A stretch of 64,000 bases of DNA from Microbulbifer flavimaris (GTDB taxonomy: Bacteria; Pseudomonadota; Gammaproteobacteria; Pseudomonadales; Cellvibrionaceae). Both the position numbers and the translations under genes were made by a program. The notes beneath the pieces are model-generated. The model did not search any database. It was not told the origin of the DNA and worked only from the letters and a program-made list of their open reading frames with translations. Numbering within the stretch: position 1 is the stretch's first letter; the number at the start of each line of letters is the position of its first letter. This document shows positions 45,435 through 58,614 of the stretch, in pieces. The stretch spans positions 1 to 64,000 of the forward strand of contig NZ_LRFG02000004.1 of the NCBI RefSeq assembly GCF_001641755.2. The letters run 5' to 3'.

Positions 45435-47693
45435 ATGCCCAACGTAAAGCGCAGCCTGGCTGCGGCCATCGCCCTTGCCTCACTTTCCAGCCCATTTGCC
45501 TCCGCCAATGAGCCCGCTTTTTCCCAGGTGATTGCCTTCGGTGACAGCCTCACCGATGTCGGCAATGCGGGGATCTTCACCAGTGGTGACGACAAGCAGG
45601 CGGCCATCAGCATCATGTCACAGCAGCTGGGCCTTGGCCCGGTCACTCCGTCCTGCGCCGGGCTGAGCCTGTGCCTGCCGGAGGTCAACCCGGCACTCAG
45701 CCCGGAAGAACTGCTGGCTTCGGCCCAAGCCCAGGTGCAGGCCGCACTGCCCAATGTTGGCGGTGGCTGGGCGGTGGGCGGCCACCGCGCCGCCGATGTA
45801 TTGCTGAATATTCTCGGCACCGAGGGTTACTTCAACTACCTGGCCCAAAACGGCATGACGCTGGACGTCAACGACCATAACTTCGTCAGTGCCCTGCTGC
45901 CGGACCCTACCCGGGAAACCAGCACCGGCCTCTACCCGGACCTCAACCTGCTCGGGGCTTTCCTGGCCGGTGACCCGAATGCTGCGGCTGCCATTGTGGC
46001 GGATTCCGGCATCACCGGTAATCCGCACCCGTTGGGCCTGGGTTACCTGGAAACCACAGCGGGCCGCGCCGACGGTAAGGCACTCTACTGGGTGAATGGT
46101 GGCGGTAACGATCTGCTGGGAGGCTTCCAGGCCGTGCTGGGAGGCAGTATCACCCAGGCACAATTTGGTGAAGATATCGGTACTGCCGCCAATATGCTGG
46201 CCGATGGTGCTAATGCCCTCTCTGCTGCCGGCGCCAACTACATTCTGGTCTCCAACGTTCCTGACATCAGCAGCACACCGGGAATGTTTGCTGCGGTGAG
46301 CCAGGCAGTGCTGGCGAGCCCTGAGGCGGCGCAGCTCGCCGACGCCGTTGCTGCCGGCCTGATCACGCAGGCAGAGGCGGACGCCCAGCTGGCCGCTGCC
46401 GTCAGCGATACGCTATCGATCGCAGGCGGCGCTGTGGATGCGTTCAACAGCACCCTGATGGCCGCTGCCGGCGATATCGACGGCGTCCTGCTGGTGGACC
46501 AGAACGGTGTACTGAAGGTCTCCCTCGCCAATGCCGGTACTCTTGGCTTTGCCTCCGGATTCCAGCAGACACAGTTCTGTTATGACGGCAGTGGCGGCTG
46601 TATCGAGCACCCGGTTTACGGCATCAACGGTACCAATCCGGATGACAGCCAGCTGATCTTCAACGACGCGGTGCACCCGACCCAGGCCGCACAGAACATG
46701 CTGGCCGACTACTACACCGGCATCGTCAATGCTGCACAGGTGGCCGGGCAACTGCCGGATATCGGCGTACAGGCGGCCCGCACCCACACCAACACCCTGG
46801 AAGAAAACCTGCTCGGCGCGCGCTACAGCGATGCGCAGACCGGTGTGTTTGTGGGTGGCGTGTTCGGCAATACGGATTACAGCAGTGGCTTTGCGCCCAA
46901 CCTGAGTGGTGATGGCAGCGGCGGCATTCTCGGTGCTACCTACGCCCTGCGCAGCAATACTGAGCTGGGCTTCGCCCTGAGCCGTTCCGATATCTCCCTC
47001 GACAATGCACAATCCGTCGTGGACTCCACCTCCACCAATTACAGTGTCTTCGGCCGCTTCCACTACGACGTACTGTTTGTGGATGCCAGCGTAACGATGA
47101 CGGATGTGGATTACGACAACGTCAGCCGCGCCTTCCGCCTCGGTAGCAGCTTCAACAGCAGCCTCGACGCCGATACTTCCGGTGAAAACCTCTCCCTGAG
47201 CATGACCGCGGGTGCCAACATTCTCACTGGCCCCACCCGCCTCGGGCCGTTTGCCAATGTCACCCGGGCAACGGTTGAGGTGGAAGGTTACACCGAGGAC
47301 GCCATTGATGGCTTTACCTACACCGACGCCAGCGGCACGGAGCAGGATCCCTTTGGCATGCACTTTGCCAGCCAGGAGCGCCGCTACACCACCATGCGCG
47401 TCGGCGGTTTTGCCAGCCATAGCTGGGACAGCATCAGTGCCTACGGACAACTCTGGTATGAGGACACTACCGGCACTGATGACGACTCCCTGGAGGTCGG
47501 CATCAAATCCATGGGCGGCAACATGAATGCGATGCCCAGCTATGCCAGTGAGGGGGTGGGCCTGTTCGAGGATGGAGCCGGTGCCATGGTCGGCCTGCGC
47601 TGGCAGGCGGCCAGCCGCCTTGCCGTCAGCGCCAATCTCACCGCGCGCCCCACTTCCGAGACCGGTTCCATCAGCGTGAATTACCTGTTCTGA
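45435..47693 (+). CDS. GDSL/SGNH esterase autotransporter
   Basis: 752 residues; AGGAGAG precedes the ATG. Signal peptide about 1-24. The passenger is a GDSL lipase/esterase: VIAFGDSLTDVGNAG (nucleophile Ser), YWVNGGGNDLLGG (block III Asn), and NDAVHPTQAAQ (catalytic Asp/His). The C-terminal 260 residues form an autotransporter beta-barrel ending in NYLF. This is the architecture of Pseudomonas EstA-type outer-membrane esterases. An Ala-rich stretch of about 60 residues (about 290-345) interrupts the passenger. Confidence 0.93.
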   Translation: MPNVKRSLAAAIALASLSSPFASANEPAFSQVIAFGDSLTDVGNAGIFTSGDDKQAAISIMSQQLGLGPVTPSCAGLSLCLPEVNPALSPEELLASAQAQVQAALPNVGGGWAVGGHRAADVLLNILGTEGYFNYLAQNGMTLDVNDHNFVSALLPDPTRETSTGLYPDLNLLGAFLAGDPNAAAAIVADSGITGNPHPLGLGYLETTAGRADGKALYWVNGGGNDLLGGFQAVLGGSITQAQFGEDIGTAANMLADGANALSAAGANYILVSNVPDISSTPGMFAAVSQAVLASPEAAQLADAVAAGLITQAEADAQLAAAVSDTLSIAGGAVDAFNSTLMAAAGDIDGVLLVDQNGVLKVSLANAGTLGFASGFQQTQFCYDGSGGCIEHPVYGINGTNPDDSQLIFNDAVHPTQAAQNMLADYYTGIVNAAQVAGQLPDIGVQAARTHTNTLEENLLGARYSDAQTGVFVGGVFGNTDYSSGFAPNLSGDGSGGILGATYALRSNTELGFALSRSDISLDNAQSVVDSTSTNYSVFGRFHYDVLFVDASVTMTDVDYDNVSRAFRLGSSFNSSLDADTSGENLSLSMTAGANILTGPTRLGPFANVTRATVEVEGYTEDAIDGFTYTDASGTEQDPFGMHFASQERRYTTMRVGGFASHSWDSISAYGQLWYEDTTGTDDDSLEVGIKSMGGNMNAMPSYASEGVGLFEDGAGAMVGLRWQAASRLAVSANLTARPTSETGSISVNYLF

Positions 47694-48522: not shown

Positions 48523-50229
48523 TTAGTGCGCGCTGGCCTCACCCGCCCCTTTCGGGAAGCGGATACTAGCCACCATTTCCTGCACATGCTTGGGCGCATC
48601 CTCGGTCATGCGTGCCACGGCAATGGCAACACCGAAGTTGAGCAGCATACCCAGTGTGCCGATACCCTCGGGGGAGATACCAAACCACCAGTTGTCCGGA
48701 GTGTTGGCGGCCGGATTGATGAACTTGAAGTAGATGATGTAGGCCGCGGTAAAGGTGATACCGGAGATCATGCCCGCAATCGCCCCTTCCTTGTTCATGC
48801 GCTTGCTGAAGATGCCCAGGATGATCGCCGGGAAGAACGACGAGGCTGCAAGCCCGAAGGCGAACGCCACCACCTGGGCCACGAAGCCCGGCGGATTGAT
48901 CCCCAGGTAACCGGCGATACAGATGGCCACCGCCGAGGCAATCCGCGCGTAGCGCAATTCCTGTTTATCACTGATGTTAGGCATCAGGTTACGCTTCAAC
49001 AGGTCGTGGGAAATCGACGTCGAGATCACCAGCAACAGGCCCGCTGAAGTGGATAGCGCTGCGGCAATGCCACCTGCTGCTACCAGCGCGATAACCCAGG
49101 CCGGCAGGTCGGCGATCTCCGGGTTGGCCAGCACCATGATATCGCGGTCGATATTCATCTCGTTGCGCTCATCACCGGAATAGAACATCTTGCCGTCGCC
49201 GTTCTTGTCTTCCCAGGAAATCAGGCCGGTGTTTTCCCAGTTAGAGATCCAGCTTGGAGCCTCCTCATAGGCAGTACCCTGCGCGTCCGGGCCGTTGATG
49301 GTGTCGATCATGTTCACCCGTGCGAAGGTGGCAATAGCCGGCGCAGTGGTGTAGAGCAGAGCGATAAACAGCAGCGCCCAGCCAGCGGACTTGCGCGCAT
49401 CGCGCACTTTGGGCACGGTAAAGAAACGCACAATCACGTGGGGCAGACCGGCAGTACCCACCATCAGTGCAGCGGTGATAAAGAACACATCGATGGTGCT
49501 CTTGGTCCCCGACGTGTACTCCGCAAAGCCCAGTTCCGTCGACAGGCCATCCAGTTTATCCAGCAGGAAAGTTCCGGAACCATCGGACAGCTCGCTGCCA
49601 AAGCCGATTTGCGGGATGACATGACCGGTCATCATGATGGAGATGAAAATCGCCGGTACCAGGTAAGCGCAGATCAGTACGCAGTACTGGGCCACCTGGG
49701 TATAGGTGATGCCCTTCATGCCGCCGAGCACCGCATAGAAGAACACGATGGCCATACCGATGATCACACCCGCGGTAATGTCCACCTCAAGGAAGCGGGA
49801 GAACACCACACCCACGCCACGCATCTGGCCCGCCACATAGGTGAAGCAGACAAACACGGCACAGATGACGGCAACCGTGCGCGCCGTATTCGAGTAATAG
49901 CGATCGCCGATAAAGGCCGGCACCGTGAATTTGCCGAACTTGCGCAGGTAAGGCGCCAGGCACAGAGCCAAAAGCACGTAGCCTCCGGTCCAGCCCATCA
50001 GGTAGACGGCACCGTCGTAGCCCATAAAGCTGATCAGGCCCGCCATGGAGATGAACGACGCTGCCGACATCCAGTCTGCCGCCGTGGCCATGCCATTGGC
50101 AACCGGGTTGACGCCGCCGCTGGCGACATAGAAGTCGTGGGTGGAACCGGCGCGGGACCAGATGGCAATACCGATATAGACCGCAAAGGTAATCCCCACG
50201 ATGATGAATGTGAGAGTTTGAATATCCAT
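48523..50229 (-). CDS. sodium:solute symporter (SSS), acetate/short-chain-acid type (VC_2705-like)
   Basis: 568 residues, about 13 membrane segments; AGGAG lies 7 nt before the ATG. The N-terminus ([38 protein letters not shown]) is close to acetate permease ActP. A hydrophilic loop of about 75 residues with Asp-rich [16 protein letters not shown] is typical of the VC_2705 subgroup. Partner of the DUF4212 subunit encoded 9 bp upstream. Context with acs, crbR and crbS points to acetate or other short-chain carboxylate import. Confidence 0.9.
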
Positions 50230-50238
50230 GACCCGCTC

Positions 50239-50556
50239 CTAGTGTGTGAACTCTTCTTCGAGGGCTTCTTCGAATTCATCTGGTTCTTCGTGATCCTCAT
50301 GTACGTTGTACTTGCGGTCGAGCTTGTTCATCTTGACCACGTACACCACGATCAGAGCCAGGAATACATAGATAGAGCCCTGCTGGGCAAACCAGAAGCC
50401 GAGCTTGAAACCGCCCAGGCGGATCGCATTCAGCTCTTCCACAAACAGGATGCCCGCACCAAAAGACACCGCAAACCAGATACAGAGCAGGGTCAGCATC
50501 ATGCGGAGATTTTCTTTCCAGTAGTCATCCGCGTGTTTTTCACTTTCGAAACTCAT
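50239..50556 (-). CDS. DUF4212 small membrane subunit of the SSS symporter
   Basis: 105 residues with two membrane segments and the family N-terminal motif DDYWKENLRMMLTLLCIWF. It is almost always encoded directly before a VC_2705-type symporter, as here (9-bp gap), and is thought to be its small subunit. The C-terminus is acidic (EEPDEFEEALEEEF). Confidence 0.92.
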   Translation of the reverse strand: MSFESEKHADDYWKENLRMMLTLLCIWFAVSFGAGILFVEELNAIRLGGFKLGFWFAQQGSIYVFLALIVVYVVKMNKLDRKYNVHEDHEEPDEFEEALEEEFTH

Positions 50557-50594: not shown

Positions 50595-51941
50595 TCAGAA
50601 GGCATATTTGACGGAAAACTGCAGGCGCTGCAAGTCGCCCTCGTCATCCGCCAACAGTCCACTGACATTTTCCACCTGCTTACTGGCCAGAATGTACTCG
50701 CCACCGAGGGTGAGCTTTGGTACCGGTGAATAGAGCAGATTCAGGTGGGCGCTGCGGTACTCGGCCGCAGTGGTGTCAGAGACCGTATCCGGATTGTCGG
50801 CAGAGCTCATGGAGAGCACGACATTGGTCCGCCAGGCCTGACTCCAGGGGTGGCGCCAGGCAATGAAACCACCGGACTGGTCGATCAAGTCGATATCACC
50901 ATCCACATCGATAATGCCGGCGCGGTAGCCGTTAAGGCCCATATAGCGCCCCAACGCATTGCCGTAGTTGTACATAAAGCGGATATCGTCCGTCCCCAGC
51001 TGGAGCTTGCCGGACAGGCTGATGGCATAACCGCGCCGGGATTCGCGGAGATCCCCGGCTTCATAGGCCAGCTCGCGGCTCATGGAGGCGATGGAATAAC
51101 TGAGGCCGCCCGCACTGTTGTTGTAACGCACAATAAAGTCCGGGCTGCCGTTATCGTCGTAGGGGTTCTCAGTACCGTTGTAGAGCGTGGTGGCAGGGTT
51201 TTCTGCCGCGACTTGCAGGCTGCCGGAACCAACCTTCTGGGTGAAGCGCAGTTGCGGCTGGCGCTCGAAAATCGTTCCCACCGGCCCGACGAAATCCATC
51301 CCTTCCGGCAATGCGCCCACATTGAAGAAGGTGGACCAGCTCTGGCCTGCCAGCAGGCTGCGGCTTTCATCCATCTGCCAGTCCACATAGGCATGGCGCA
51401 AACGCTGTGCGTAGGAATTACTGATGCGCTCGTCCCCCTGGCCACTGGCCATGGCGTCGATTTCGAGATGGGTATTCACCTGACCCGAACCCGCAGCCGT
51501 GCTGGTTTTGATAAACAGGCGGGTGGATTTGGCATGGGCGTGATACTTGGCGTCACCGCTCTCACCACCGACAGGGATGGTTGAAGGCACGAGGAAATCC
51601 TCGCCGATGCCCGCTGTGGCCGAGGCGCCATCAGAGTAATCACTCAGGTTGCTGTCCAGTTTGACGTAGCCGCCGATCTGCAGCTTGGTGCCACTGGCCG
51701 GCGCCTGCTCCGGCTCCGGATCCGGCAGCGACGCCATACGCTGTTCGGCGCGCTCCGCCTGTTCGGCCAGTTTGCTGATCTGGGCCTGCAGTTCCTCGAT
51801 GCGCAGCTGCAGCTCCTCGGGGCTGGGCTCATCCGCGACGGACTTCTGCGCACTGGCGACACTGGCAAAGCCCAGACAGGCCGATGAAATGATCAGACCC
51901 GCCGAGAGGCGAGCCACGAATTTTCCGATTGGTTTGGTCAT
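50595..51941 (-). CDS. DcaP-like outer-membrane porin
   Basis: 448 residues from the ATG at 51941, chosen for GGGAG 7 nt upstream (an ATG at 51956 lacks one). A signal peptide (to about residue 32, SVASA-QK) and a short coiled coil (ELQLRIEELQAQISKLAEQ) precede a barrel beginning LQIGGYVKLDSNLSD and ending in LQRLQFSVKYAF with a terminal Phe. DcaP porins take up dicarboxylates and other small acids. First gene of the leftward porin-DUF4212-symporter unit, which starts at the promoter shared with acs. Confidence 0.85.
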   Translation of the reverse strand: MTKPIGKFVARLSAGLIISSACLGFASVASAQKSVADEPSPEELQLRIEELQAQISKLAEQAERAEQRMASLPDPEPEQAPASGTKLQIGGYVKLDSNLSDYSDGASATAGIGEDFLVPSTIPVGGESGDAKYHAHAKSTRLFIKTSTAAGSGQVNTHLEIDAMASGQGDERISNSYAQRLRHAYVDWQMDESRSLLAGQSWSTFFNVGALPEGMDFVGPVGTIFERQPQLRFTQKVGSGSLQVAAENPATTLYNGTENPYDDNGSPDFIVRYNNSAGGLSYSIASMSRELAYEAGDLRESRRGYAISLSGKLQLGTDDIRFMYNYGNALGRYMGLNGYRAGIIDVDGDIDLIDQSGGFIAWRHPWSQAWRTNVVLSMSSADNPDTVSDTTAAEYRSAHLNLLYSPVPKLTLGGEYILASKQVENVSGLLADDEGDLQRLQFSVKYAF

Positions 51942-52013
51942 ACCGTTCTCCCTCATCGCTGGCTAATTGATTGGTGCAGTAGCGATATAAGCGCGTTTGC
52001 GAAAATTCGGGTA

Positions 52014-52110
52014 TTAACCATTGGTCTAAATCCAGGGGCTATTTCGACCAATGTCTAAGTGTGGGAGGGAAATGCCGGTCAATCACAGCGGATTTCGACT
52101 TATGTCTAAT
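52014..52110. promoter_or_regulatory. three copies of a roughly 19-bp motif in the divergent porin/acs promoter
   Basis: Direct copies ATTTCGACCAATGTCTAAG (52041-52059) and ATTTCGACTTATGTCTAAT (52092-52110) are 51 bp apart. An inverted copy lies at 52014-52031 (on the minus strand ATTTAGACCAATGGTTAA). They sit in the 260-bp gap between the porin and acs genes, beside a LuxR-type regulator and its kinase, and are candidate CrbR operators. Confidence 0.55.
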
Positions 52111-52201
52111 ACGCGCTTTTGCGGGCGCGGGGCATGATGTTCATAAACACAAAACCCGATGCCGGGCAGCCGGCTTTGAATAATCAGCGAGGTCCGCCAA
52201 C

Positions 52202-54160
52202 GTGAAAGAAGCAACTGTCTACCCCGTGCCCGCGCACTACGCCGAACAATCCCTGTTGAATGAGCAGCAGTACCTGGAGCTGTACCGGCGCTCCATAGAG
52301 GACAATGAGGGCTTCTGGCGCGAGCAGGGGCAGCGGCTCGACTGGATCAAGCCATTCACGCAGGTAAAGAACACATCTTTCGACAAGGATGACCTGCATA
52401 TCCGCTGGTACGAGGACGGTACGCTCAATGTCGCCGCCAACTGCCTGGACCGGCACCTGGCGGAACATGCCGACAGCAACGCTATCCTGTGGGTGGGCGA
52501 CGAACCCGGCCAGAGTCGCGAGATCAGCTACCGCGAGCTGCATCGGGAAGTGTGCCAGTTCGCCAACGGCCTGAAATCCCTCGGGGTGAAAAAGGGGGAT
52601 GTGGTGACCATCTATCTGCCAATGATTCCCCAGGCGGCCGCTGCCATGCTCGCCTGTGCCCGTATCGGTGCGATGCACTCGGTGGTGTTTGCCGGCTTCT
52701 CTCCGGAGGCTCTCGCCGGGCGCATGGATGATGGGCACTCCCGTATCGTCATCACCGCCAATGCCGGCAAACGCGGCGGCCGCTCGGTGGTGCTGAAAGA
52801 AAACGTGGACCGGGCGATCGAACTCTGTAAGGAAACCACCGTCGAGAAAGCGGTAGTCGTGGACTACACCGATGATCAGGTCAACATGGTGCCGGGTCGC
52901 GATGTGGACTATGCGACGCTACTGGCGGAGCAGAGCGACGATTGCCCGGCAGAAGAAATGAGCGCAGAGGATCCACTGTTCATCCTCTACACCTCCGGCT
53001 CCACCGGCAAGCCCAAGGGGGTGCTGCACACCAGCGGCGGCTACCTGACCTACGCCAGTCTCACCCATGAATATGTGTTCGACTATCGCCGCGGTGAGCG
53101 TTTCTGGTGTGCCGCCGACATCGGCTGGGTCACCGGCCACAGCTACATCATCTACGGACCGCTGGCCAACGGCGCAACCACGGTGATGTACGAAGGTGTG
53201 CCCAACTATCCCGATGTAAGCCGTGTGGCCAGCATTATCGACGAGCACCAGATCGATGTGCTCTACATTGCTCCCACCGCGATTCGTGCATTGATGGCCG
53301 AGGGCGACAAACCCACCGCAGGTGCTGACCTCTCCTCCCTGCGCCTGCTGGGGACCGTGGGCGAACCGATCAATCCGGAGGCCTGGCGCTGGTACCACGA
53401 TCACTTCGGCCGCGGCCGGTGCCCGATTGTGGATACCTGGTGGCAGACTGAGACCGGTGCGGCCCTGTTGACGCCCCTGCCCGGAGCCACCGCCCTGAAG
53501 CCCGGTTCCGCTACCCGCCCCTTCTTCGGCATCCGCCCGGCACTGGTGGACAACGAGGGGAATGTCCTGGAGGGCGCCGCCGAGGGCAACCTGGTCCTGC
53601 TGGATAGCTGGCCGGGGCAGATGCGCACCGTGTTCGGGGATCACCAGCGCTTTATCGATACCTACTTCAGCACCTTCAACGGCATGTACTTCACCGGCGA
53701 CGGCGCCCGTCGGGACGAGGATGGCTACTATTGGATCACCGGACGCGTGGACGATGTTTTGAACGTATCCGGTCACCGCATGGGCACTGCCGAGCTGGAG
53801 AGCGCACTGGTGGCGCATCCCGCTGTGGCCGAAGCCGCCGTGGTGGGCTTCCCCCACGACATCAAAGGTCAGGGAATCTATATCTACGTGACCCTGAACA
53901 GCGACCGGCAACCCAGCGAGGAAATGCACCGCACCCTGCGCGACTGGCTGCGCAGTGAGATCGGTCCCATTGCCACACCCGATGTGATTCAGTGGGCTCC
54001 CGGGCTGCCCAAGACCCGCTCCGGCAAGATCATGCGCCGCATCCTGCGCAAGATTGCTGCCGATGAAGTGGATCAGCTGGGGGACATCTCTACACTGGCA
54101 GACCCGTCGGTGGTGGCTGAACTGATTGCCCGCCACGAGGCCCTGGCGGAGAGCGCCTGA
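52202..54160 (+). CDS. acs: acetyl-CoA synthetase
   Basis: 652 residues, GTG start with GAGG 9 nt upstream. Activates acetate to acetyl-CoA with ATP through acetyl-AMP. The AMP-binding motif [19 protein letters not shown], the WWQTETGA core, [19 protein letters not shown] and the C-terminal RSGKIMRR are intact; the Lys of the last motif is the site acetylated by Pat-type enzymes in other bacteria. Full normal length. Diverges from the porin/symporter operon and is followed by the response regulator. Confidence 0.97.
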
Positions 54161-54311: not shown

Positions 54312-55022
54312 ATGACCAACCCAAACGGTCCCGGCGCCGGCCGCCGCAAATTTATTGTGGCCGACGACCATCCGCTGTTTCGCGGAGCCCTTTGCCAGTC
54401 CATCCGCACCACCTTTGCTGACGCCGAGATCGTCGAGGCAATGGACATGGAGAGTTTGCAACGCTGCGCTGCGGAGCACAGTGACGCAGACCTGCTGCTA
54501 CTCGATTTGCATATGCCGGGCGCCCATGGCTTCAGCGGCCTCATCTTCCTGAGCGGCCAGCACCCGCAGCTACCGGTGATGGTGGTCTCTGCCAACGAGA
54601 AACCGGAAGTCATGTGTCGGTCGGTGGATTACGGGGCCTGCGGCTTCCTGCCGAAATCCGCGCCGGTGGAAACCATTGGTGAAGCTCTGCAAGCCGCCCT
54701 GGCGGGGGATATCTGGCTGCCAGCGGATGTGGCCCGGCAGCGCACGACCGGGGGTGCTGAGCATGACGACGTCGCCGATGTGGTGGCATCACTGACTCCG
54801 CAGCAATTCCGCGTGGCCACCATGCTGGCCGAAGGCCTGCTGAACAAGCAGATTGCCTACGAGATGAATGTCACCGAGGCGACCGTGAAGGCCCACCTCA
54901 CCGCCCTGTTCCGCAAGCTGGGTGTGAATTCACGTACCCAGGCGGTACTGGCCATCAGCAGTCTGGATGTGGAGGCGCCGGGGCAGTTCACGCCTCCGCC
55001 GAAGCAGCCCGCCCCCGCCTGA
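54312..55022 (+). CDS. crbR: LuxR-type response regulator CrbR/ErdR-like
   Basis: 236 residues from the ATG at 54312 (GAGGGAG 5 nt upstream; the frame is open further but would run through the acs terminator). The receiver domain has the acidic pair in VADDHPLFRG, the phosphoacceptor Asp in LLLLDLHMPGAHG and Lys in GFLPKSAPVE. The LuxR HTH is LTPQQFRVATMLAEGLLNKQIAYEMN...VKAHLTALFRKLGV. Regulators of this type, with the SSS-domain kinase CrbS/MxtR, activate acs in Vibrio and Pseudomonas; both partners are here beside acs. Confidence 0.88.
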   Translation: MTNPNGPGAGRRKFIVADDHPLFRGALCQSIRTTFADAEIVEAMDMESLQRCAAEHSDADLLLLDLHMPGAHGFSGLIFLSGQHPQLPVMVVSANEKPEVMCRSVDYGACGFLPKSAPVETIGEALQAALAGDIWLPADVARQRTTGGAEHDDVADVVASLTPQQFRVATMLAEGLLNKQIAYEMNVTEATVKAHLTALFRKLGVNSRTQAVLAISSLDVEAPGQFTPPPKQPAPA

Positions 55023-55161: not shown

Positions 55162-58100
55162 TTACACATGGCCCACTGGCGTTTTCGACAGCCGCCTGAC
55201 CAGGTTGCGCAGTGCCGCCGGCTTGACCGGTTTCGGCAGATAGAAAAGCCCCGCGTCGCGGGCACTATCGCGCACTGTCTCGGAAATATCGGCGCTGACC
55301 AGGATGCCGGGAACTTCTGACTGCCAGTCATCACAGAGCGCCTCGATCGCCTCGATACCTGTCGCGCCATCATCCAGGTGGTAGTCGGCAATGACTAGCT
55401 GTGGCGGACCCCCTTTCCACGCCGCGCGCGCCTCAGTAAGTGAACGGGCCACCGTCACCTGACACCCCCACCCCTCCAGCAGACTCTGCATACCACGCAC
55501 GATAGAGGCTTCATTGTCGATACAGAGGACCCGGACCCCATCCAGCTCTGCCCCCAGCGCGGCCTGCTCGGAGGGCACTGATTCCTGTGAACGGCTTGCA
55601 GGCACACCCGCAGGCAACAGGATTGAAAACAGGGTGCCACGCCCGGGCACGGAGTGGAGGTGCACCGGGTGGCCCAGTAGATCGGCACTGCGACGGGCGA
55701 TAGCGAGCCCCAGGCCCAAGCCTTTTTCACTGGCATTTTCCGCCGATGCCAGCCGCACAAACTCATCGAAAATCTGCGCCTGCGCTTCCTCGGCAATACC
55801 GGGGCCAGTGTCGAGTACCTGCACCTCCAGACCCTCGGGCCGACGGCGCACGCCGATGAGGACCCGGCCACGGCGCGTGTACTGCAGCGCATTACTGAGA
55901 AAGTTCTGCAGGATCCGCCGCAACAGATGGCGGTCACTGTAGACCCAGGCACTGCTGCGGGGATGACGGAGCTGCAGGCCACGTGCAGCGGCAATGGCCT
56001 GCATTTCAGTCGCAAGTCCATCGAGCAAGTCGTTCAGCGGGAAGTGCTCCAGCTTAGGGGTCAGCTTGCCGGAGTCCAGCCGGCTGATCTCCCGCAGGGC
56101 GCCGATCAGGTGCTCGGCGGATTCCAGTGCGCTGTCGATATTGGCAATGTCCGACAGGGTCTCGGGCCACTGCTCCCGCGCGGCCTTCTGCTGTGCCGAG
56201 GCAATAAACAAGCGCGCCGCATTGATGGGCTGCAGGAGGTCGTGGCTGGTGTGGGCCAGGAACCGCGACTTGGCCGCGTGCAGGGACTGCAGCTCTGCCG
56301 TCCTCTGCTCTACCCGCTGCTCCAGTGTGCGCTGGTTTTCCTCCAGTGCATCCACCGCAGCCCGGTAGTCGCTGATATCGGTGAAGGTGGTCACAAAGCC
56401 GCCGCCGGGCATGGGCGTCCCACGTACCTCGACGATGACACCATTCGGCAATCGCCGCTCGAAGCGATGTGCGCTGCCGTGACGCAATAATTCCAGCCGC
56501 CGTTGCACCTGGGCATCCAGATCGCGGTTCTGGTCGCCGTACAGGCCGCGCTCCGCATTGTGGCGATAGAGGCGTTCTACCGGACAACCGATATATAGTA
56601 GCCGCGAGGGATACCCGAACAGCTCCCGGTACTGCTGGTTCCAGGCTACCAGGCGCAGATCCGCGTCCACCACGGAAATCCCCTGACTGATGGTCTCCAC
56701 CGTTGTCTGCAGCAACTCCTGGCTGAAACGCAATTTCTGCGAAGTGCCATCCACCAGCCGGGCGATATGCTCCACCTTGAGTGGCTTATTGCGGCGCAGC
56801 AGCTCCAGCACCTGCTGTGCAGTGCCGGAGCCGACAATCCCCGCCAGGATCGTCTCTGTCTCCCACACAACAAACCTCGGCGCCCGGTCATCGGGGAGCA
56901 ACCGCTGGCCGGCACGCAATTCAAAACCCTGCCAGATTTCATCCAGCCGATCAGAACCGATGAACGGCTGCATCAGGCTGTGCAGCTGTGCGACCTGCAC
57001 ACTGGTCGGCGCCAGCTCGGCACTGGCGTCCCGGCGGCGCACACCCTCATCGACGAAGGCGCTGGCCTGGCGACGGTCGCGGCCATCCTGCTGGCTCAGC
57101 CTGGACACCAGCACAAACAGGAACACATTGGCCACAAGGCTCCAGAACACACCGTGGCTCAGGGGATCGAGGCCCGTCAGTCCAAAAAGTGCCTGTGGCC
57201 GCAGCCAGGAAACACCAGCCAATCCCTGGCCCGTCAGCGGATGGGCCGGGAACACCGCCGGCAACACCAGGCAGAAGAACCACAGGGCATAACCGGCGGC
57301 AAGGCCGGCCCAGACACCGTTGCGGTGGGCCTCCCGCCAGTAGAGGCCACCGATCAGTGCCGGTGCCAGCTGCGCGGCGGCGGCGAAAGACAGCAGGCCG
57401 ATGGGGGCCAGGGTTTCCAGCCCCGTCAGGGCACGGTGCATACCCCAGCCAAGGAGCATCAATAACAGGATACTGACCGCACGGATCTGGCGCAGGTAAT
57501 TACCGAAGGAGACTGCCGACAAGCGCGTGAAACGGCTCAGATAAAGCCAAACCGGCGCCACCAGCTCATTGGAGATCATCACCGCAAGCGTTACTGCCGC
57601 GACAATCACCATGCCAGTGGCGGCGGAGAATCCGCCCAGGTAGGCGAGTGCGGTCAGCGCACTGCTGTCGGCCGCCATCGGCAGCGACAGTACCAGGCTG
57701 TCCGGCGAGAGCGCCCCACCGGTGGCAAGAGGTTGGCCAGCCATGGCGATCGGCAGGATCAACACCGCAAACAGCAGCAGGTAGAGCGGGAACATCCAGC
57801 GTGCGGTATGCAGGTCCTTTGGACCCTGGTACTCCACCACGGCCATATGGAACTGCCGCGGCAGACACAGGATGGCAGCAGCGGCGAGGAGCGTCTGGGT
57901 GAGGAAATTCGCGTCCAGGGTAAGGGGGTCCCAGCGCCGGGCAAGAGCCTCACCGCTAACCAGTGCTTCTGTCACCAGCAGCCAGCAGGCGAGCCCGGCC
58001 ACGGCCGCAAAAGCCAGCAACTTCACCAGGCTTTCCAGCGCGATGGCGCTCACCACGCCGCGATTGCGTTCCCGCCCCTCCAGGTGACGGGTGCCGAACA

Positions 58101-58614
58101 GCACCGCAAACAGCCCCATGAGCAGGGCTGTGGCCAGCGCCGTATCCAGATTCCAGAGACCGGCACCCACATCGCTCGGACCAACGGCATCCCACGCCAT
58201 GGTCACTGCCCGCAGCTGCAGGGCGATATAGGGTAGCGTACCCACAATCGCCAGAACCGTGACCAGCGCAGACAGCCCGCGGCTCTTGCCATAGCGAGAG
58301 CCGATAAAGTCGGCGATGGAAGTGACTTTCTGTCGCTCCCCCACCGTGACCAGCTTGCCCAGCAGCGAACCACCCAACAGAAACAGGAGAATGGGACCCA
58401 GGTAAATGGGCAGGTAACTCCAGGTGCTGGCCACCGCCTGACCCACGCCACCAAAAAAGGTCCAGGAGCTGCAGTAGACCGCCAGCGCCAGCGCGTAGAC
58501 CACCGGCCGGTAGCGCTGACTCCAGGCACCGCGACGCTCAGCCCACCAGGCCACCGCAAACAACAGCGCCACATAAACCAGGGCAAAGAAGAGCAAAAAG
58601 GGCTTGCCTATCAT
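55162..58614 (-). CDS. crbS: CrbS/MxtR-like hybrid sensor histidine kinase with SSS transporter domain
   Basis: 1150 residues. The N-terminal 500 or so residues form a solute:sodium-symporter-like 13-segment domain. A linker (STAC-like) and a PAS domain (about 650-760; GISVVDADLRLVAWNQQYRELFGYP) follow, then HisKA with the phosphoacceptor His in FLAHTSHDLLQPINAARLF, a HATPase domain (GLGLGLAIARRSADLLGH) and a C-terminal receiver (about 1027-1150; Asp in LVIADYHLDDG). This architecture is that of CrbS, which senses carboxylates and drives acs expression through CrbR. Convergent with crbR, 139 bp apart. Confidence 0.9.
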   Translation of the reverse strand: MIGKPFLLFFALVYVALLFAVAWWAERRGAWSQRYRPVVYALALAVYCSSWTFFGGVGQAVASTWSYLPIYLGPILLFLLGGSLLGKLVTVGERQKVTSIADFIGSRYGKSRGLSALVTVLAIVGTLPYIALQLRAVTMAWDAVGPSDVGAGLWNLDTALATALLMGLFAVLFGTRHLEGRERNRGVVSAIALESLVKLLAFAAVAGLACWLLVTEALVSGEALARRWDPLTLDANFLTQTLLAAAAILCLPRQFHMAVVEYQGPKDLHTARWMFPLYLLLFAVLILPIAMAGQPLATGGALSPDSLVLSLPMAADSSALTALAYLGGFSAATGMVIVAAVTLAVMISNELVAPVWLYLSRFTRLSAVSFGNYLRQIRAVSILLLMLLGWGMHRALTGLETLAPIGLLSFAAAAQLAPALIGGLYWREAHRNGVWAGLAAGYALWFFCLVLPAVFPAHPLTGQGLAGVSWLRPQALFGLTGLDPLSHGVFWSLVANVFLFVLVSRLSQQDGRDRRQASAFVDEGVRRRDASAELAPTSVQVAQLHSLMQPFIGSDRLDEIWQGFELRAGQRLLPDDRAPRFVVWETETILAGIVGSGTAQQVLELLRRNKPLKVEHIARLVDGTSQKLRFSQELLQTTVETISQGISVVDADLRLVAWNQQYRELFGYPSRLLYIGCPVERLYRHNAERGLYGDQNRDLDAQVQRRLELLRHGSAHRFERRLPNGVIVEVRGTPMPGGGFVTTFTDISDYRAAVDALEENQRTLEQRVEQRTAELQSLHAAKSRFLAHTSHDLLQPINAARLFIASAQQKAAREQWPETLSDIANIDSALESAEHLIGALREISRLDSGKLTPKLEHFPLNDLLDGLATEMQAIAAARGLQLRHPRSSAWVYSDRHLLRRILQNFLSNALQYTRRGRVLIGVRRRPEGLEVQVLDTGPGIAEEAQAQIFDEFVRLASAENASEKGLGLGLAIARRSADLLGHPVHLHSVPGRGTLFSILLPAGVPASRSQESVPSEQAALGAELDGVRVLCIDNEASIVRGMQSLLEGWGCQVTVARSLTEARAAWKGGPPQLVIADYHLDDGATGIEAIEALCDDWQSEVPGILVSADISETVRDSARDAGLFYLPKPVKPAALRNLVRRLSKTPVGHV

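Follow-up and report, generated by a model that had tools for sequence, protein, structure and literature searches.

Three ACTU-motif sites between acs and a porin–DUF4212–symporter operon of Microbulbifer flavimaris form a candidate operator of a CrbS/R-type acetate switch

The window, by which we mean the whole 64,000-nucleotide stretch of Microbulbifer flavimaris DNA analysed here, contains two divergent transcription units: acs, which encodes acetate–CoA ligase, and an operon for a DcaP-family porin, a DUF4212 symporter small subunit and a VC_2705-family sodium/solute symporter (Table 1). The gene for a CrbR-type response regulator follows acs, and a CrbS-type hybrid histidine kinase gene is convergent with it. 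The genome carries a second acs, 62% identical, on another contig; the 450 bp upstream of it (L065) contain no site at up to four mismatches. A search of the genome for a DUF485 protein, the ActP partner in P. fluorescens, gave none. Near the locus, positions 45435-47693 hold a 752-aa frame whose sequence resembles a GDSL-type esterase autotransporter.

Table 1. Genes, ACTU sites and putative promoter hexamers at the acs/porin locus (positions in the window)
Feature	Position	Strand	Remarks
VC_2705-family sodium/solute symporter	48523..50229	-	TIGR03648, 880 bits (cut-off 321)
DUF4212, symporter small subunit	50239..50556	-	PF13937, TIGR03647
DcaP-family porin	50595..51956	-	PF19577, 38 bits (cut-off 27); start at 51941 has GGGAG before it
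Putative porin -10 hexamer TTATAT	51985..51990	-	Distance from site 1 equals that on the acs side; weaker conservation
ACTU site 1, porin side	52014..52031	-	ATTTAGACCAATGGTTAA
ACTU site 2, middle	52041..52058	+	ATTTCGACCAATGTCTAA; centre 29 bp from site 1
ACTU site 3, acs side	52092..52109	+	ATTTCGACTTATGTCTAA; 51 bp from site 2
Putative acs -10 hexamer CATGAT	52133..52138	+	Position conserved past the acs-side site; CAGAAT or CAAAAT in most relatives
acs, acetate--CoA ligase	52202..54160	+	TIGR02188, 979 bits (cut-off 725)
CrbR-type response regulator	54312..55022	+	Receiver and LuxR HTH; likely ATG at 54312, listed frame opens at 54126
CrbS-type hybrid histidine kinase	55162..58614	-	PAS, HisKA, HATPase, REC

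The 18-bp pattern ATTTMGACYWATGKYTAA has three matches, all of them between the porin operon and acs. No further copy was found in the 64-kb window with up to three mismatches, and shuffled controls gave a mean of 0.19 matches and reached three in 0 of 100 shuffles. Across the 3.64-Mb genome, the 17-mer core at up to three mismatches has 24 matches: three are exact and all lie in this region, and the remaining 21 carry three mismatches each, none fewer. As both patterns were derived from the copies themselves, we added tests that are independent of them, namely a matrix trained outside this lineage and Markov resampling. For the matrix, we used four published P. fluorescens sites and 45 acs promoters taken from other lineages, each near a CrbR-type gene; training forced one site on each promoter, including weak ones at L138, L170, L171 and L176. 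On both strands of the window, this matrix places the three copies at ranks 1–3 (23.9, 19.9 and 15.5 bits; next place 11.5). Markov resamples of the intergenic DNA contained at least two sites of at least 12 bits in 0 of 2000 cases and one site in 13, against an observed number of three. A matrix made from only five published sites ranks site 3 first and site 2 third in the window, with site 1 outside its top 14. KACYWAYGTC, the bare core, does not stand out in the window (three matches vs. 0.87 expected, and 8 of 100 shuffles reach three).

Each copy is an imperfect dyad, GAC-N4-GTC, in which site 1 carries GGT instead of GTC. The initial annotation had described two direct copies 51 bp apart and one inverted copy, lying between the porin operon and acs and beside crbR/crbS. 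Pattern search confirms the copies (the direct pair, sites 2 and 3, is 51 bp apart from start to start), and coordinates together with profile matches bear out their placement; given that every copy is itself dyadic, “direct” and “inverted” are loose labels.

Judged by their sequence, the three copies are the ACTU motif published for the CrbS/CrbR (MxtR/ErdR) acetate system (PMC5715377; this and the other studies cited were available to us in part, and what we say of them refers to those parts). In P. fluorescens, the motif spans −52 to −36 of the acs promoter and is required for CrbR-dependent activation, and it was reported in 91 of 112 gammaproteobacterial promoters belonging to acs, actP or two other members of the regulon (PMC5715377). 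The locus described here has much in common with that regulon: a 17-bp imperfect dyad stands 5′ of both acs and an acetate-type symporter operon, whose substrate may be acetate, and a CrbR-type regulator is combined with an SLC5-type kinase. A site may also lie directly upstream of the −35 region, as it does there. As far as the available text of PMC5715377 goes, it differs from P. fluorescens in that three sites share a single divergent region and include a fixed 28–29-bp pair, the symporter is of the DUF4212/VC_2705 rather than the DUF485/ActP type, a DcaP-type porin heads the operon, and regulator, kinase and acs adjoin.

Reports on related regulators are mixed. The regulator type of MxtR/ErdR in P. 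putida and P. aeruginosa is orthologous to the one found here (PMC8402216, PMC9927353). ErdR bound the actP-I operon promoter in vitro and, in P. putida, did not bind the acsA-I promoter (PMC8402216); in a P. aeruginosa erdR mutant, most of the tested genes went up and the actP operon went down, i.e. most tested targets look repressed, whereas we propose activation (PMC9927353). AcsR of V. vulnificus is a LuxR-type regulator that bound the acsA upstream region, and acetyl phosphate gave no help; no motif, footprint or porin link was seen in the available part of that report (PMC4409781).

The best NCBIfam model for the adjacent regulator is that of ErdR (NF041830). Since its score of 248 bits does not reach the cut-off of 390, we name the protein CrbR-type and not ErdR. 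Proteins of Shewanella (255 bits), Marinobacter (291 bits) and Halomonas (266 bits) likewise stay below the cut-off and two Pseudomonas proteins pass; outside Pseudomonas, the curated model fails to capture several probable CrbR proteins. The DNA-reading helix of the adjacent regulator is near that of an above-cut-off Pseudomonas ErdR (L103). In a 94-row tree, the protein belongs to a supported group of eight, made up of regulators of its own genus, G024, Pseudoteredinibacter, Pseudohalioglobus and Vreelandella utahensis, inside a broad ErdR/CrbR-type set whose deep order the tree does not resolve. Pfam finds no domain, and in particular no SSF, in the N-terminal half of the kinase. An AlphaFold model of residues 1–550 (mean pLDDT 80.8, eight sequences), searched against the PDB with Foldseek, retrieved sodium/solute symporters at every rank from 1 to 30; according to this model, the N-terminal half has an SLC5 fold, which is the CrbS design.

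The sites are conserved well beyond their surroundings: across an alignment of seven orthologous regions, 39 of the 56 columns within sites do not vary, vs. 6 of 136 ungapped columns elsewhere. Of 48 genomes of the genus, 29 carry the CrbR-type gene of this locus, and the porin-side site (one mismatch allowed) occurs in 28 of these 29 and in none of the 19 genomes without the regulator. At least three sites are found in 27 of the 29, a count that starts from the regulator and is free of selection for site 1; the other two genomes have two sites each (G469, and G478, where site 1 is not recognisable). The co-occurrence of regulator and sites partly reflects the presence or absence of the whole locus as a block. 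At least three sites are also present at 32 of 33 orthologous loci, most of them found through site 1; as the 33 were found via site 1 or via acs, the presence of site 1 among them is largely by construction. (We read 38 loci, dropped six without acs and two with another acs carrying one site, and added L029–L031 to the remaining 30.)

Across the family, site 1 was matched in 39 of 144 genomes and a reversed control pattern in 12 of 144. In the family sample, all eight acs genes with an adjacent regulator have at least three sites, and two sites occur at none of 29 other acs genes, of which 22 have no regulator in a flank of about 1.5 kb and seven are second copies with a downstream flank too short to judge; five of the 29 have one match with three to four mismatches. 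A class-wide search with site 1 and its flank at up to two mismatches hit 17 of 369 genomes, with an exact match only in the genome of origin, and is uninformative beyond the family. At G475:C8 near 49988 and G487:C1 near 28383 (L263 and L269), the three sites and the porin are kept and the acs match is partial, with the regulator about 6 kb off, as if the acs stretch had been rearranged.

At the 33 loci, −10-like hexamers lie about 22–24 nt past the outer sites, CA[AG]AAT-like on the acs side and weaker on the porin side. With these hexamers taken as putative −10 elements, the spacing would fit the published placement of the motif at −52 to −36 (PMC5715377); a σ70 consensus scan found no promoter in the region and picked up neither hexamer. 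The centres of sites 1 and 2 are 29 bp apart at 18 of 32 loci, 28 bp at 13 and 17 bp at one (the two-site locus L259 is left out of this count), and the acs-side site lies anywhere from 32 to 230 bp from site 2. The largest value comes from G492:C78 (L271), far beyond the other loci, where an insertion is likely. In seven loci, site 2 and the acs-side site seemed well phased on the helix; with 32 loci, helical phasing was dropped as unproven: at 10.5 bp, the Rayleigh p value is 0.019 for 17 distinct lengths and 1e-5 for all 32 lengths with relatives included; for eight length groups it is 0.13, and a 15-bp period fits better than 10.5.

We consider it likely, with a probability of about 0.85, that the region is an operator of a CrbS/R-type acetate switch serving both acs and the porin–DUF4212–symporter operon. 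This reading combines the motif identity, its conservation and spacing, the co-occurrence with the regulator and the domain make-up of the encoded proteins. The SLC5-type kinase would sense acetate or an acetate-derived compound and phosphorylate the CrbR-type regulator, a dimer of which would bind each ACTU dyad. The dimer at site 3 would sit just upstream of the acs −35 region, and the dimer at site 1 would be placed likewise for the oppositely facing operon; this geometry suggests a class II activator position for both outer-site dimers. At site 2, a second dimer 28–29 bp from site 1 would probably strengthen the porin side. The region had been proposed in the initial annotation as a candidate CrbR operator that activates both directions from one region. 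The first part gains support at the sequence level from the ACTU motif, the regulator and SLC5-like kinase, conservation and co-occurrence. As to the second, the sites do face both genes, with binding and activation as predictions, but there is no single shared operator, since the outer sites are equidistant from their own −10-like hexamers and the middle site lies 28–29 bp from the porin-side one.

Several observations speak against a CrbR operator: the unmet ErdR cut-off, the GGT of site 1 and its being missed by the five-site matrix, the lack of a σ70 consensus promoter, and a second ErdR-like regulator in the genome. The latter (C2:758679-759275; 189 bits to the ErdR model) is encoded about 6 kb from a second kinase of the same type (C2:765706-769017, 41% identical), has a related HTH and in the tree groups, on long branches, with the G047 regulator; the acs promoter of G047 is also multi-site. 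We nevertheless regard it as very unlikely that this regulator binds the sites, alone or with the adjacent one: it is encoded away from this locus, the porin-side site is absent from the nine genus genomes that have the second regulator without the first, and its HTH departs from that of the adjacent regulator at residues where the latter is similar to Pseudomonas ErdR (TEPTVKSH vs. TEATVKAH). Chance repeats without regulatory meaning deserve next to no credence. In their favour, allowing one mismatch in the short core reveals no enrichment across the genome, and KACYWAYGTC by itself is no rarity within the window, but the independent matrix puts the copies at ranks 1–3, no resample matched them, and conservation across genera refutes a chance origin.

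Against simple activation stand the mixed ErdR results (PMC8402216, PMC9927353). The regulator might mainly repress one or both promoters, as the rise of most tested ErdR targets in the P. aeruginosa mutant would suggest (PMC9927353), or acs might be the sole real target, with the porin-side sites serving it from afar, with which the less conserved porin-side −10 would be in keeping. Both variants appear unlikely in view of site 1, which is the most fixed in sequence and has an equal distance to its −10-like hexamer, and of the recurrence of one site per facing gene in L183, L195, L200 and L237.

On the reading as a two-sided CrbR operator, and by its sequence, the porin–DUF4212–symporter operon looks like an additional CrbR target. 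A DUF4212 gene is present at 16 named loci, and a site of at least 12 bits lies within 400 bp upstream of it in ten and is absent in six; the clearest examples are Pseudoteredinibacter (L132), Vreelandella utahensis (L184) and Pseudohalioglobus (L198). Six of eight named loci with a porin match have such a site upstream of the porin (none at L182 and L211), and G047 has a single site between kinase and DUF4212. At the Pseudohalioglobus sediminis locus (L198), which is without acs, two strong ACTU sites (20.6 and 21.5 bits) precede DUF4212–symporter genes that adjoin a CrbR-type gene.

A further proposal, which we put forward tentatively and with less than even confidence, is that CrbR runs, out of a single three-site region, a full acetate import line (outer-membrane DcaP-type porin, DUF4212/VC_2705 symporter and Acs), with a cooperative rigid pair that adjusts uptake relative to activation. 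If so, the porin and the DUF4212 symporter would be dedicated short-chain-acid carriers. If the operon is a CrbR target, the CrbR regulon would gain a porin and a little-studied symporter family, each with a testable substrate. Kept across genera, the rigid pair supplies naturally varied operators with which to study the control of two promoters by a single regulator.

Among 46 named acs promoters near a CrbR-type gene (the 45 training promoters included), the number of sites of at least 12 bits is one in 28 promoters, two in 16, three in one and zero in one. The only three-site promoter is that of Pseudoteredinibacter, which belongs to the same family as the window (Cellvibrionaceae, NCBI) and was kept out of matrix training. 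Porin/acs or porin/regulator regions with one ACTU site in each direction and an adjoining CrbR-type gene occur in Ketobacter (L183), Perlucidibaca (L195), a MAG (L200) and G072 (L237); these regions carry two sites each and lack the combination of pair and third site seen here. Multiple sites are therefore not unique, and it is the rigid pair with a further site that marks this group. The motif and the system are already known; the literature searched showed neither the divergent layout with three sites nor the porin/DUF4212 targets, and the word DUF4212 did not occur in it; subscription papers lie largely outside that literature.

A genome-wide motif scan, suggested in the initial annotation as a check, gave exact 17-mer matches only at this locus and no enrichment of the short core: GACYWANGTCKAA with one mismatch has 30 matches in the genome vs. 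113 for the reversed pattern. The 26 short-core places outside the window correspond to 24 stretches that we examined, and five of these reach a matrix score of at least 12: one at the end of the second kinase gene (18.6 bits), one by a lipase-like gene, one by a malate dehydrogenase gene and two inside open frames. We cannot tell these five from chance. The highest-scoring, an ACTU-like 17-mer at C2:765672 (L225:1273), falls within the final codons of that kinase gene, 5′ of an MFS transporter gene, and may be a chance match; at C1:742412 (L219:1212), a weak ACTU-like site of 13.6 bits lies upstream of the malate dehydrogenase gene.
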